A stretch of DNA of 41,830 bases from Pseudofulvimonas gallinarii (GTDB taxonomy: Bacteria; Pseudomonadota; Gammaproteobacteria; Xanthomonadales; UBA2363): NCBI RefSeq assembly GCF_004343305.1, contig NZ_SMAF01000026.1:1-41830 (forward strand). Reading direction: 5' to 3'. Shown one piece after another: positions 7,051 through 26,533 of the stretch. Below the pieces are notes generated by a model that had not been told where the DNA came from, ran no database searches, and was given only the letters and a program-made list of their open reading frames with translations. The first letter of the stretch is position 1. Each line of letters begins with the position of its first letter. Position numbers and translations under genes: made by a program.

Positions 7051-9153
7051 ATGCCGGCGCCTGTACGGACGAAGACGCAACCGGTGTTGTCCGGCGAATC
7101 GCCGGTGCAATGGCTGCCCGGGGTCGGACCGCGGGGCGCCGAGCTGCTGGCGCGGCTCGGCATCGAACGGGTTGCCGACCTGTGGTTCCACCTGCCGCTG
7201 CGCTACGAGGACCGCACGCGCATTGAACCGATCGCCGCGCTCGATGCCGGCGTCAAGGCGCAGGTGCTGGGCCGTGTCCTGGCCGTCGAACGCGGTTTCC
7301 GTTTCCGGCCCTTCCTGCGTGTCGCCCTCGGCGACGACAGCGGCGCGACGCTGCTGCTGCGCTTCATCCATTTCAACCAGGCACAGGCGCGCGGCTTCGA
7401 AGTCGGCCAGCGGCTGCTGTGTTTTGGCGAGCCGCGGCGCGGGCAGCTCGGCTTCGAGATGGTCCATCCCAGCTATCGGCGCCTCGACGACGGGGCCGCT
7501 GTGCCGGTGGATGAATGCCTGCGTGCGGTCTATCCGGTGACCGAAGGCCTGGACAGCCGGCGCCTGGCCGCCTGGGTCGCCGCCGCCCTGCGCCTGCTTC
7601 CCGATGACGGGGCGCTTGAACTCGTCCCGGCGTCGATGTTGAAGCGGTTGAAACTGCCCGGCCTGGCCGCCGCCCTGCGCTACGTGCACGCGCCGCCACC
7701 ATCGGTGCGCATCGAGGACATCGAGGCCGGCCGCCATCCCTCGCAGCGGCGGCTGATCGTCGAGGAGTTGCTGGCCCATCACCTGGCACTGCGTCGACGT
7801 CGCCTCAGCCAGCAGGCGCAGCGCGCGCCGCAGCTCTCGGCAACGGGCGAACTGGCGGCGCGACTTCGTGCCGGCCTGCCGTTCGCACTGACCGGCGCGC
7901 AGCAGCGTGTCGTGGCCGAAGTGGGTGCCGACCTGGCGAAGCCGGCACCGATGCTGAGGCTGGTGCAGGGCGATGTCGGATCGGGCAAGACCATCGTCGC
8001 CGCGCTCGCCGCGGCGCAGGCGATCGAAGCCGGTTGCCAGGTCGCCGTCATGGCGCCGACCGAACTGCTCGCCGAGCAGCACCGCCGCAACTTCGCGCAC
8101 TGGTTCGCCTGCCTGGGCATCGAGCCGGTCTGGCTGGCCAGCAAGGTGAAGGGCCGGGCGCGCGCACAGGCGCTGGCGGCGATCGCCGACGGCGCGCCGC
8201 TGGTCGTTGGCACCCATGCGCTGATGCAGGAAGGCGTCGGGTTCGCGCGCCTGGGCCTGGCGATCATCGACGAGCAGCACCGCTTCGGCGTCCACCAGCG
8301 CCTGGCCTTGCGCGACAAGGGCGCCGGCCTGGTGCCGCACCAGTTGGTGATGACCGCCACGCCGATCCCGCGCACGCTGGCGATGGCCGCCTACGCGGAC
8401 CTGGATGTCTCGGTGATCGACGAGCTGCCGCCGGGTCGCACGCCGGTGACGACCGTCGCCGTGCCCGCGGCACGTCGCGACGAAGTGGTCACGCGCATCC
8501 ACGCCGCCTGTGCCGAAGGCCGGCAGGCCTATTGGGTCTGCACCCTCATCGAGGAATCCGAACTGCTGGCGGCCCAGGCGGCGGAGCAGGTCCATGCGCA
8601 GCTGACCGCGGCAGTGCCCGATCTTCGCGTCGGCCTGATCCACGGCCGCTTGAAGCCGGCTGAAAAGGAGACGGTGATGGCGGCGTTCAAGGACGGCCAC
8701 CTGCACGTGCTCGTCGCGACCACCGTGATTGAAGTCGGGGTCGATGTGCCCAATGCCAGCCTGATGGTGATCGAGAATGCCGAGCGCCTCGGCCTGGCGC
8801 AGCTGCACCAGCTTCGCGGCCGCGTCGGCCGCGGACGCGCCGAGTCCAGCTGCGTGCTGCTGTACGAGCCGCCGCTGTCCGGCCTGGCGCGCGAGCGCCT
8901 GGACGTGCTCCGGCACAGCAACGACGGATTCCGCATCGCCGAGAAGGACCTGGAACTGCGCGGGCCAGGCGAACTGCTGGGCACGCGGCAGACCGGCGTG
9001 CTCGGCTTCCGCATCGCCGACCTGTCGCGCGACGGCCATGAGCTGCCGGCTGTCGCCGCACTCGCGGACGAGATGCTGGCCGACTACCCCGATCATGCCG
9101 AGCGCCTGACACGGCGCTGGATCGGCCAGGCCGAGCGCTACGCCGGCGCCTGA
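7051..9153 (+). CDS. recG: ATP-dependent DNA helicase RecG
   Basis: A 700-residue branched-DNA helicase that reverses stalled forks and processes recombination intermediates. The N-terminal wedge/OB region (about 20-250) begins with the helix-hairpin motif LPGVGPRGAELLARLGI. Helicase motifs follow: Walker A GDVGSGKT near residues 307-314, the DEQH box in IIDEQHRFGV near 407-410, TATPIPRTL, and the C-terminal QLRGRVGRG. The end carries the RecG-typical ELRGPGELLGTRQTG segment. TGAGGT at 7038-7043 is a ribosome site 7 nt from the ATG. The length and motifs indicate an intact enzyme. Confidence 0.96.
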   Translation: MPAPVRTKTQPVLSGESPVQWLPGVGPRGAELLARLGIERVADLWFHLPLRYEDRTRIEPIAALDAGVKAQVLGRVLAVERGFRFRPFLRVALGDDSGATLLLRFIHFNQAQARGFEVGQRLLCFGEPRRGQLGFEMVHPSYRRLDDGAAVPVDECLRAVYPVTEGLDSRRLAAWVAAALRLLPDDGALELVPASMLKRLKLPGLAAALRYVHAPPPSVRIEDIEAGRHPSQRRLIVEELLAHHLALRRRRLSQQAQRAPQLSATGELAARLRAGLPFALTGAQQRVVAEVGADLAKPAPMLRLVQGDVGSGKTIVAALAAAQAIEAGCQVAVMAPTELLAEQHRRNFAHWFACLGIEPVWLASKVKGRARAQALAAIADGAPLVVGTHALMQEGVGFARLGLAIIDEQHRFGVHQRLALRDKGAGLVPHQLVMTATPIPRTLAMAAYADLDVSVIDELPPGRTPVTTVAVPAARRDEVVTRIHAACAEGRQAYWVCTLIEESELLAAQAAEQVHAQLTAAVPDLRVGLIHGRLKPAEKETVMAAFKDGHLHVLVATTVIEVGVDVPNASLMVIENAERLGLAQLHQLRGRVGRGRAESSCVLLYEPPLSGLARERLDVLRHSNDGFRIAEKDLELRGPGELLGTRQTGVLGFRIADLSRDGHELPAVAALADEMLADYPDHAERLTRRWIGQAERYAGA

Positions 9154-10384: not shown

Positions 10385-10744
10385 ATGTCCTACGTCGACG
10401 GTTACGTGATGGCGGTGCCAACGGCCAACAAGGCGGCCTTCATCGAACACGCGCGCAAGGGCGACCCGGTGTTCCTGAAATACGGCGCGCTGCGCGTGGT
10501 CGAGTGCTGGGGCGACGAGGTGCCCGATGGCGTGCTCACCGATTTCCGCCGCGCCGTGCAGGCGACACCGGAGGAAACCGTGGTGTTTTCCTGGGTCGAG
10601 TGGCCGGACAAGGCCACCCGCGACAAGGGCATGGCGGCGATGATGGACGACCCGGCGATGTCGCCGGACCACAATCCCATGCCCTTCGACGGCAAGCGCC
10701 TGATCTACGGCGGCTTCGCGCCGGTGGTGACGCTGGCGCGGTAG
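10385..10744 (+). CDS. DUF1428 family protein (copy 1)
   Basis: A 119-residue cytosolic protein of the DUF1428 family, expected to form a ferredoxin-like dimeric alpha/beta barrel; no reaction is established. Family features are the start SYVDGYVMAVP, the central FSWVEWPDKATRD, and the end PFDGKRLIYGGFAPVV. A GGGAG-type ribosome site precedes the ATG. It lies 66 nt after tRNA-Thr and is convergent with ppa. A second, divergent member (24341-24700) sits beside an ECF42 sigma gene. This copy lacks the TGTCGA-type promoter found there, so the two are probably controlled differently. Confidence 0.85.
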   Translation: MSYVDGYVMAVPTANKAAFIEHARKGDPVFLKYGALRVVECWGDEVPDGVLTDFRRAVQATPEETVVFSWVEWPDKATRDKGMAAMMDDPAMSPDHNPMPFDGKRLIYGGFAPVVTLAR

Positions 10745-24340: not shown

Positions 24341-24700
24341 TCAGCGCTGCACCAGTGTTTCGAAGCCGCCGTAGGCCATGCGCCTGCAGTCGAACGGCAC
24401 GTCGTCCGGACTCATCCCCGTCATCCGCGGGTCGTTCATCACCGCCGCGTTGATCCGGTCGCGATCGGCCCGGGACGCGAACTCGATCCAGGCGAAGACG
24501 ATGGTTTCATCCGCCTTGGCGTTCACCAGCACGGGAAACGGCGTCATGCCTTCGGCGGCCAGGTCCTCGGCCACGCATTCGCGATAGGACAGCGCCCCGT
24601 GCTCGCGCCACAGGCCGGCGGCCATGTTGGCGATGCGGCGATAGGCTTCGACCTGGTCCTTGCGGATCGGCAGGATGTAACCGTCGATGTAGCTGCTCAT
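24341..24700 (-). CDS. DUF1428 family protein (copy 2), divergent from the ECF42 unit
   Basis: A 119-residue DUF1428 protein: MSSYIDGYILPIRKDQVEAY at the start, FAWIEFASRADRDR in the centre and PFDCRRMAYGGFETLV at the end. The start at 24700 matches the family; in-frame codons upstream to 24823 would cross the control region. It shares 192 bp with the divergent DGPF gene. A TGTCGA-N17-CGAC element (24751-24777, minus strand) points at this gene with a leader of about 45 nt. It is therefore a likely target of the neighbouring ECF42 sigma factor. The catalytic role is unknown. The 245 bp between this gene and the serine hydrolase start (24096-24340) hold no gene I can support. Confidence 0.87.
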   Translation of the reverse strand: MSSYIDGYILPIRKDQVEAYRRIANMAAGLWREHGALSYRECVAEDLAAEGMTPFPVLVNAKADETIVFAWIEFASRADRDRINAAVMNDPRMTGMSPDDVPFDCRRMAYGGFETLVQR

Positions 24701-24750
24701 GATGGAGGTCTCCGTGGCAATGGCCGGGCCGATGTCGCGCCCATGACCTG

Positions 24751-24777
24751 GTCGAACACAGCGGAGCGGATTCGACA
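24751..24777 (-). promoter_or_regulatory. Candidate ECF42 promoter of the DUF1428 gene
   Basis: On the minus strand TGTCGA (24772-24777), exactly 17 nt, then CGAC (24751-24754). The flanks extend the match to the copy facing the other way: TGTCGAA-N14-TTCGACCAG. Confidence 0.6.
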
Positions 24778-24837
24778 GCGGTGGGCCGGAGGCCCGCCGG
24801 TTCGCGATGGCGGGCTCGAGCACCTATAGTCGGGCCC

Positions 24838-24864
24838 TGTCGAAACCGTCGGTCGCCGTTCGAC
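24838..24864 (+). promoter_or_regulatory. Candidate ECF42 promoter of the DGPF-sigma operon
   Basis: TGTCGA (24838-24843), exactly 17 nt, then CGAC (24861-24864), 28 nt before the ATG at 24893. It has the same extended form TGTCGAA-N14-TTCGACCAG as the opposite copy. A housekeeping-like TATAGT lies upstream at 24825-24830. Confidence 0.65.
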
Positions 24865-24892
24865 CAGCTGTCGCAACCCGCCAGGAGCGATC

Positions 24893-25246
24893 ATGAAATA
24901 CCTGCTGCTGATCTATAACGACCCCGACCGCCTCGGTGCCATGCGCAAGGAGGAATTCGACCGGGAACTGGCGCATTGCTACGAGCGCGCCCATGAACTG
25001 ATGGCGGAAGGGCGGCTGCTGTCGTCCGAGCGTCTGCAGCTGCCGGACACGGCGACGACCGTGCGCATCCGTGATGGCGCGATGTCGGTCACCGACGGCC
25101 CGTTCGCGGAAACCAAGGAATACCTCGCGGGTTTCAATGTCATCGAGGCCCGCGACCTGAACGAGGCGATCCGACTGGCGGCCGGATTCCCGTGGGCGAA
25201 GACCGGCAGTGTCGAAGTGCGGCCGATCGCGCAGTCGCTGCCCTGA
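24893..25246 (+). CDS. DGPF/YCII-related protein
   Basis: A 117-residue YCII-like protein with the eponymous DGPF motif in TDGPFAETKEYLAGF (DGPF near 68-71). The start MKYLLLIYNDPD is standard for the family. The fold is a dimeric alpha/beta barrel; its activity is not established. Such genes are regularly found beside ECF42 sigma factors. AGGAG at 24883-24887 is the ribosome site. The stop is 27 nt before the sigma gene, so the two are co-transcribed from the TGTCGA promoter. Confidence 0.9.
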   Translation: MKYLLLIYNDPDRLGAMRKEEFDRELAHCYERAHELMAEGRLLSSERLQLPDTATTVRIRDGAMSVTDGPFAETKEYLAGFNVIEARDLNEAIRLAAGFPWAKTGSVEVRPIAQSLP

Positions 25247-25273: not shown

Positions 25274-26533
25274 ATGGTCGCACTGAGTGCGCAGGCGGCG
25301 CTGAAGGCGCGGATCGATACGCTCTACCGGAGCGAGTCACGCCGTGTCCTGGCAACGCTGATCCGCCTGCTCGGCGATTTCGATGTCGCCGAGGAAGCGC
25401 TGCACGACGCCTTCCGTGCAGCCGTCGAGCAATGGTCGTCTACGGGCGTCCCGGACAATCCGCGTGCCTGGCTGGTTTCCGCCGGCCGGTTCAAGGCGAT
25501 CGACCGGCTGCGCCGCAATGCCCGTTTCCAGGGCGACTTCGAGTCGATCGTGCAGGGGCTGGCGGCCGCGGACGCCGACCCGGCCGACCGCGACTTCGAC
25601 CAGGTCGAAGACGACCGCCTGCGCCTGGTGTTCACCTGTTGCCATCCGGCTCTGGCGCCGGACGCGCAGATCGCGCTGACCCTGCGCGAAGTGTGTGACC
25701 TCACCACCGAGGAAATCGCCCGCGCCTTCCTCGTCCCGACTCCGACCGTGGCGCAGCGGATCGTGCGCGCCAAGCATCGCCTGCGCGATGCCGGCATTCC
25801 CTACGAAGTGCCGGGCCATGCCGAGTTGCCGCAGCGGCTGGACAGCGTGCTGCGGGTCATCTTTCTGGTCTTCAACGAAGGCTACAGCGCGACCGCAGGT
25901 GATTCCATCGAACGGCGGGACCTCACCGGCGAGGCGATCCGCCTGGCGCGGCTGCTGCTCACGCTGCTGCAGGATGCCGAGGTCATGGGCCTGCTGGCGC
26001 TGATGCTGCTTCATACCTCGCGGCGCGCAGCGCGGGTTGGCGCGGACGGCGACCTGGTGCTGTTGCCGGAACAGGATCGCAGGCTCTGGGACCGTGCGCT
26101 GATTGCCGAAGGCGAAGCGCTGGTACAGCGGGCGATGGCCACGCGACGCATCGGCGTTTACACGTTGCAGGCGGCCATCGCCGCCGAACACGCACGCGCA
26201 ACGACATCGGCAGATACCGACTGGTCGCGCATCATCGCCCTCTACGACATCCTGCGTCGCGCCGACCCGTCGCCGGTGATCGAACTGAATCGCGCGGTCG
26301 CCGTCTCGATGCGCGACGGCCCGCAGCCCGGACTGGACCTAATCGACGCACTGCTGGCACGCGGGGACCTGGCCGACTACCACCTCGCGCATGCGGCGCG
26401 TGCGGACCTGTGCGAGCGGCTGGGACGTTTCGGCGATGCGCGCTCGGCCTATCGCCGCGCATTGGCGCTGGTCCGGCAGACGCCTGAACGGCGCTATCTG
26501 GAACAGCGTCTTTCCGGATTGCCGTCCCGCTGA
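25274..26533 (+). CDS. ECF42-type RNA polymerase sigma factor with long C-terminal extension
   Basis: This 419-residue protein is about twice the size of a normal ECF sigma factor. Sigma-2 spans about 10-85 (LLGDFDVAEEALHDAF, then NPRAWLVSAGRFKAIDRLRR). Sigma-4 spans about 118-175 (LTLREVCDLTTEEIARAFLVPTPTVAQRIVRAKHRL). The rest is the ECF42 extension, with the family FNEGYSAT (Asn201-Tyr204), LARLLLTLL and the ending YRRALALVRQTPERRYLEQRL, which looks TPR-like. Known members lack a cognate anti-sigma factor and need the extension for activity; none is encoded here either. It is translated after the DGPF gene and probably activates its own operon and the divergent DUF1428 gene. The upstream ATG at 25266 is out of frame. 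Confidence 0.9.
   Translation: MVALSAQAALKARIDTLYRSESRRVLATLIRLLGDFDVAEEALHDAFRAAVEQWSSTGVPDNPRAWLVSAGRFKAIDRLRRNARFQGDFESIVQGLAAADADPADRDFDQVEDDRLRLVFTCCHPALAPDAQIALTLREVCDLTTEEIARAFLVPTPTVAQRIVRAKHRLRDAGIPYEVPGHAELPQRLDSVLRVIFLVFNEGYSATAGDSIERRDLTGEAIRLARLLLTLLQDAEVMGLLALMLLHTSRRAARVGADGDLVLLPEQDRRLWDRALIAEGEALVQRAMATRRIGVYTLQAAIAAEHARATTSADTDWSRIIALYDILRRADPSPVIELNRAVAVSMRDGPQPGLDLIDALLARGDLADYHLAHAARADLCERLGRFGDARSAYRRALALVRQTPERRYLEQRLSGLPSR

Follow-up and report, generated by a model that had tools for sequence, protein, structure and literature searches.

Does the ECF42-type sigma factor of Pseudofulvimonas gallinarii serve only the operon in which it is encoded, or does its reach extend to a divergently oriented gene of the DUF1428 family and to genes elsewhere? 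The question arises from a 41,830-nucleotide stretch (contig NZ_SMAF01000026.1, positions 1 to 41,830; hereafter, the window), where two short elements in the gap between the DUF1428 gene and a YCII-related (DGPF) gene point in opposite directions—one toward DUF1428, the other toward YCII and the sigma factor gene behind it. ECF42 sigma factors are widespread, yet their targets and signal are poorly known; known already are the class itself, its YCII neighbor and its promoter motif. Here, we argue that both elements are very probably promoters for RNA polymerase carrying this ECF42 sigma factor, such that YCII–sigma and DUF1428 would be under its joint control. The motif, its spacing, direction, conservation and association with ECF42 were established by sequence comparison. 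The outcome is a testable target list, a sharper promoter definition (TGTCGA[TA]-N11-CCGTTCGAC[TC]A) and a regulatory context for part of the DUF1428 family, whose function is unknown and of which an E. coli member has a solved structure.

Divergent promoter-like elements in the window

The 192-base gap between DUF1428 and YCII (24700 to 24893) holds one element on each strand, both facing outward (Table 1). Both copies read TGTCGAA-N14-TTCGACCAG, equivalent to TGTCGA-N17-CGAC; the plus-strand copy (24838–24867) is TGTCGAAACCGTCGGTCGCCGTTCGACCAG and the minus-strand copy (24748–24777) is TGTCGAATCCGCTCCGCTGTGTTCGACCAG. The start codon of YCII begins 29 bases, and that of DUF1428 51 bases, beyond the CGAC of its own element. 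A first-pass annotation had described twin outward copies with identical 17-base spacing, flanked by DUF1428 on one side and by DGPF and sigma on the other, and this description is borne out, including the coordinates and Pfam families of the genes. Liu et al. reportedly gave, in 2018, TGTCGA at −35 and CG[AT]C at −10 for the ECF42 promoters of Streptomyces venezuelae, a motif that fits both window sites as well as the excess of 17-base spacings in related loci.

To score sites we used a weight matrix of 30 positions, trained on 56 sites from sigma-relative loci of other genomes; the window, cyanobacterial loci and six reverse-reading or chance-like sites were left out, the training sites come from the same loci used for the other counts, and one of them is the DUF1428 site of a Methylococcaceae locus (L077). 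The window elements reach 29.9 and 24.8 bits vs 6.5 bits for the next-best site in the entire window, and the background maximum was 12.9 bits over 163,416 positions (from loci chosen partly for near-matches to the motif). These scores are stronger evidence than the rarity of the twin. Of the three exact TGTCGAA-N14-TTCGAC matches in the 3.45 Mb genome, two lie inside this gap. Among 369 genomes sampled from the class, the divergent twin pattern occurs in one, the window's own; because the backward-read control likewise matched 1 of 369 (G311), rarity alone is weak evidence. Loose matches (TGTCGA-N14..20-CGAC) are common, with 12 in the window vs 1.2 expected and, genome-wide at spacings 15–19, 252 vs 79 for the backward-read pattern.

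Table 1. Predicted elements and genes at the divergent locus.
Feature	Coordinates	Strand	Basis
ECF42-type promoter element (predicted) facing DUF1428	24748..24777	-	-35 TGTCGA, 17-base spacer, -10 CGAC; 24.8 bits
ECF42-type promoter element (predicted) facing YCII-sigma	24838..24867	+	-35 TGTCGA, 17-base spacer, -10 CGAC; 29.9 bits
DUF1428 gene (119 aa, PF07237)	24341..24700	-	Pfam E 1.1e-35
YCII-related (DGPF) gene (117 aa, PF03795)	24893..25246	+	Pfam E 4.1e-22; cf. PDB 1s7i, PA1349
ECF42-type sigma factor gene (419 aa)	25274..26533	+	sigma70 regions 2 and 4, DUF6596, weak TPR

The motif across related sigma factor loci

As relatives of the sigma factor we took the best 80 of 470 matches, from many phyla; adding two congeners and 11 kb from the window gives a set of 83 loci (705,573 bases). 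This set contains 110 TGTCGA-N17-CG[AT]C sites, spread over 64 of the 83 loci, vs 2–18 for each other spacing from 10 to 24, and the strict site is present in 63 of the 80 relatives' loci. Cyanobacterial loci, with 44 N17 sites carrying CG[AT]C vs 0–2 for other spacings, are numerous and closely related, so that counts across loci are not independent. The excess is likewise seen in the 54 loci left without cyanobacteria and one duplicate, where TGTCGA-N17-CGAC is found 60 times vs 0–7 times per other spacing from 8 to 28; the sharper definition given above is the non-cyanobacterial consensus. A site of at least 18 bits is present in 71 of the 80 loci (matrix-training loci included), and eight of these 71 lack the strict site and thus contributed no training site. 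By comparison, 20 column-shuffled matrices reach 18 bits in 0 to 6 loci and 14 bits in 0 to 15, and the reversed matrix does so in none and in three, respectively.

Sites of at least 18 bits with an assigned gene face YCII in 77 cases (an upper figure, as a YCII, sigma or DUF1428 frame was given preference when more than one fitted, and the window is included), DUF1428 in two (one being the window's), sigma in two and other genes in 20. Ten of these others were compared with Pfam: glyoxalase-like (four), SnoaL-like, DUF899, MacB/FtsX permease, MFS transporter, BNR-repeat and one unmatched. Within the extent of the locus DNA, 68 of the 80 relatives have a YCII match.

Two further arrangements were observed in these loci. 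Tandem TGTCGA-N17-CGAC pairs, 82–97 bases from start to start, precede YCII in 16 cyanobacterial loci (L089, L090, L092, L093, L095, L097, L098, L106, L110, L111, L115, L116, L119, L120, L121, and L122), in which YCII is divergent from sigma. In Acidobacteria, the element faces MacB/FtsX-type permease genes, an unexpected target class, at L045:2878–2904, L053:3879–3905 and L068:490–516 (identified by Pfam for L053 only).

Congeners and a probable small regulon in the genus

Two congeners, G001 and G002, are the only other genomes of the family in our sample (the window's own genome is G000). In both, a helicase gene separates DUF1428 from YCII–sigma and a pseudouridine synthase gene follows DUF1428 (names from reading the sequences, not from Pfam). 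All four congener promoter regions carry GGTCGA-N17-CGACCA, with the same 17-base spacer, and that two elements were kept despite the differing gene order is good evidence for joint control of both genes. The first-pass annotation had pointed to close relatives as a check on the motif: same-spacing elements do stand at both genes in both congeners, whereas the strict TGTCGA form is absent, with no match to TGTCGA-N14..20-CGAC in 17 kb around the locus in either genome.

Both sigma-locus promoters are of the GGTCGA form in the congeners (L123:6571–6600 and 8171–8200; L124:6628–6657 and 8232–8261), and unlinked congener elements (at glyoxalase-like, GFA and second YCII genes) retain TGTCGA. GGTCGA at the sigma locus could reflect weakened feedback there, in what are two close genomes only.

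Across the genus, TGTCGAW-N16-CGACYD finds 9, 2 and 6 sites in G000, G001 and G002, and its reversed control none. Nine of these 17 sites end in CGAC[CT]A, two of the nine being the window twin. Of the other seven, one lies 33 bases before an AHSA1-like gene of G000 (C27:11638), and each congener has one before a glyoxalase-like gene, at distances of 55 and 58 bases. In G001 a site faces a GFA gene from 165 bases away (a G002 site precedes the same kind of gene, judged from the translated sequence only), and in G002 another stands 36 bases from a second YCII gene. The last, in G000, faces the Schlafen-helicase fragment at C1:346478 discussed below. Before the other eight sites, which end in other bases, inspection without scoring or Pfam found no recognizable small target; long open frames over these eight are little proof in such GC-rich DNA. 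A looser pattern, which includes further GGTCGA sites, finds 6, 15 and 9 sites vs 1, 1 and 3 for its reversed control. The local pair thus looks like part of a small regulon, a word that we prefer to "unit" because within the genus AHSA1-like, glyoxalase-like, GFA and second YCII genes have elements facing them too. Each of the three genus members also has a second DUF1428 gene, whose locus holds no site above 6.6 bits.

DUF1428 in other genomes

Of 398 genomes sampled from the phylum, 109 have a PF07237 match and 91 a DUF6596 gene. We scored the regions upstream of DUF1428 genes, 121 in all, in 99 of the 108 other matching genomes (nine genomes and a few extra places were left out). Fourteen regions reach 10 bits, 11 reach 14 and nine reach 18, vs none of the 121 at 10 bits for either the opposite strand or the reversed matrix; shuffled matrices gave 10 of 2420 at 10 bits and 2 of 2420 at 14. 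By these scores, element membership is a property of a DUF1428 subset, not of the whole family. A DUF6596 gene is present in 10 of the 11 genomes with a 14-bit DUF1428 site, compared with 57 of all 99; the Fisher p value is 0.022 at this threshold, 0.0034 at 10 bits and 0.074 at 18. The eleventh genome, G417, has a partial sigma gene (a 70%-identical match to residues 13–96 of the window sigma) and was counted as without ECF42.

Some other proteobacteria have DUF1428 with an element but no twin, or within the sigma operon, and several loci outside the genus link DUF1428 to the element in arrangements of their own. In L077, a second twin lies between DUF1428 and YCII, its copies 37 bases apart vs 60 in the window. 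In G477, the element is followed by a two-domain DUF1428 frame, YCII and sigma, in that order, and in four genomes of one genus from the window's order (G167, G276, G653, and G744) a 12.5–13.7-bit site is followed by YCII, about 1 kb, DUF1428 and sigma. A site of 18.7–27.7 bits stands after sigma and before YCII, a second YCII and DUF1428 in G444, G492 and G665. The DUF1428 of L103 (Acidobacteria) lacks a site of its own (2.5 bits) but follows two YCII matches behind a 26.9-bit site. The earlier proposal of one DUF1428–DGPF–sigma unit agrees with these elements and shared operons, with the L077 twin and the congener elements, and with the fixed spacer and ECF42-type make-up of the locus itself.

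DUF1428 might also be a second partner or sensor protein of ECF42, as has been suggested for YCII, acting on the C-terminal extension of the sigma factor. We raise this because DUF1428 adjoins sigma upstream in G167, G276, G653 and G744 and heads the run in G477; we hold it unlikely, and slightly more so because the four genomes with DUF1428 beside sigma represent one genus. A profile comparison of DUF1428 with YCII (6 and 7 sequences) detected no sequence kinship (probability 0.6%), and modeling the DUF1428 structure from one sequence gave a poor result (mean pLDDT 42.6).

Promoters, operators or coincidence

Could the elements instead be operators, bound as GTCGAA-N14-TTCGAC by a dimeric regulator, with the genes transcribed from other promoters? 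The first-pass annotation had raised this caveat, and the inner bases do form an inverted repeat: both window sites have GTCGA..TCGAC, an inverted repeat of 5 bases, at their core. Leaving aside the window and the cyanobacteria, 50 of 64 sites have T before CGAC, which makes the near-palindrome class-wide. A symmetric operator is nonetheless disfavored by the asymmetry of the outer bases and of the −10 and by direction, and we consider it quite improbable. Specifically, the outer bases are mostly T...T or T...C, not T...A (palindromic cores enter the left/right count from both strands, which leaves the T..T pairing and its reverse A..A as the sole informative part), and the CCG preceding the second half is conserved one-sidedly, with no left counterpart. 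The sites are directional and face genes—the 121 DUF1428 regions have no opposite-strand site of at least 10 bits vs 14 forward. Congener YCII elements, moreover, have lost the T before CGAC and kept the 17-base spacing, and the TGTCGG-N17-CGTC sequences of Sinorhizobium meliloti are non-palindromic at the same spacing (PMC6180224). Overall, the elements are best read as ECF42-type promoters rather than as a symmetric operator.

Several ECF sigma factors per genome are usual; the elements might hence be promoters of another cellular ECF sigma factor, with ECF42 a mere passenger of its regulon. This is very improbable, as the motif accompanies related sigma loci from phylum to phylum (at the strict and 18-bit counts given above, the matrix being from the same loci) and with DUF6596-bearing genomes, and S. 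meliloti targets go up on RpoE10 overexpression (PMC6180224). Least credible of all is a functionless coincidence, by chance or recent duplication in GC-rich DNA. Loose-spacing matches are indeed frequent in the genome and a backward-read twin does occur once in the 369 genomes, but the congeners keep the spacing at both genes in a rearranged gene order, a second twin exists in L077, and the matrix scores lie far over background.

Against ECF42-type promoters as the explanation stand several observations. The local congener elements, with GGTCGA at −35, score 13.4–18.7 bits; 9 of the 80 related sigma loci have no site of at least 14 bits in the locus DNA examined; and most DUF1428 regions (110 of 121) fall below 14 bits. 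The genome-level association between DUF1428 elements and DUF6596 is modest, and the genomes are not independent. In S. meliloti, overexpressing RpoE10 leaves the SMc01151–rpoE10 operon unchanged, and the motif and mapped start of this operon overlap (PMC6180224). Finally, the highest score among the scored elements of G000 (32.1 bits, C1:346478–346506; L136, L175) belongs to an element 21 bases from a fragment of a Schlafen group 3 helicase domain (C-terminal part, profile 162–353 of 354), possibly an orphan promoter after gene loss or insertion; since it faces a mere gene fragment, a high score is no guarantee of a sensible target.

Proposed mechanism and known systems

Under joint control by ECF42, the rightward element would drive the YCII–sigma operon, yielding positive feedback, and the leftward element would drive DUF1428. 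The DUF6596/TPR C-terminal extension may keep the sigma factor idle until a signal or partner protein alters its shape; once activated, sigma would have YCII, DUF1428 and a few unlinked small genes (here, the AHSA1-like gene) made together. We infer the transcription of both elements by this sigma factor, the feedback, the role of the extension and a function in stress or detoxification from the comparisons above. YCII, DUF1428, glyoxalase-like, AHSA1-like, SnoaL-like and GFA genes all belong to families of small proteins of the ligand-binding or detoxification type, so that reactive small molecules may be what the system responds to.

Of the ECF42 systems described, the three of Streptomyces venezuelae (Sven_0747, Sven_4377, and Sven_7131; PMC8999054) resemble the window's in their sigma2–sigma4 core, long C-terminal extension (TPR there) and adjoining YCII gene. 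The C-terminal extension is essential for activity and the YCII protein has been suggested to take part in regulation (PMC8999054). Unlike these, the window's unit is divergent and includes DUF1428, which goes unmentioned in the accessible portions of the ECF42 sources. The S. meliloti RpoE10 regulon (PMC6180224) shares the 17-base spacer and the YCII–sigma gene order with the window, and its targets with glyoxalase-like and hydrophobic-ligand-binding domains can be counted as a further likeness. The report gives three RpoE10 promoter sequences, TGTCGG-N17-CGTC (the spacer counted in this analysis), two of which precede operons that rise on RpoE10 overexpression. The RpoE10 regulon differs in the motif (TGTCGG..CGTC), and DUF1428 was not found in the text available. 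The gene context of Pseudomonas putida ECF-10 is said there to resemble that of rpoE10 (PMC6180224). No link between DUF1428 and ECF42 was found in the open-access literature, a weak negative, as the main ECF42 papers lie outside that search.

The leftward gene is homologous to, and of the same DUF1428 family as, E. coli YbaA (PDB 2okq). Among 14 control genomes, E. coli included, DUF6596 matches Caulobacter vibrioides only; as the E. coli genome has no such match, YbaA must be controlled otherwise.

The locus and its genes

The YCII gene lies upstream of the sigma gene with a gap of 27 bases. The sigma core matches Pfam Sigma70_r2 (9.6e-09) and Sigma70_r4_2 (3.1e-10), and the NCBIfam sigma70-ECF model matches above its cut-off. 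The C-terminal extension is long: region 4 stops at about residue 171 of 419, and DUF6596, which we take as a mark of ECF42, occupies residues 188–288 (E 9e-36), the sole match to this family in the genome (at E 0.001). A single weak TPR_2 stretch (residues 371–399, E 3.8e-05) scores 23.9 bits, below the curated cut-off of 27. Further neighbors, by Pfam, are a Beta-lactamase-family (PF00144) gene, a LamG protein and a nucleoside-recognition (Gate) protein; no anti-sigma gene is among the Pfam-annotated neighbors of sigma, although no search aimed at anti-sigma factors was made.

The window carries a second DUF1428 gene (10388–10693), 36% identical to the first, which served as a paralog control and has no site above 2.2 bits across its own 3.3-kb locus. 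Elsewhere in the genome, on contig C5, a degenerate 15-bit site (L131:651–680) neighbors another YCII gene and seems to lie downstream of it.
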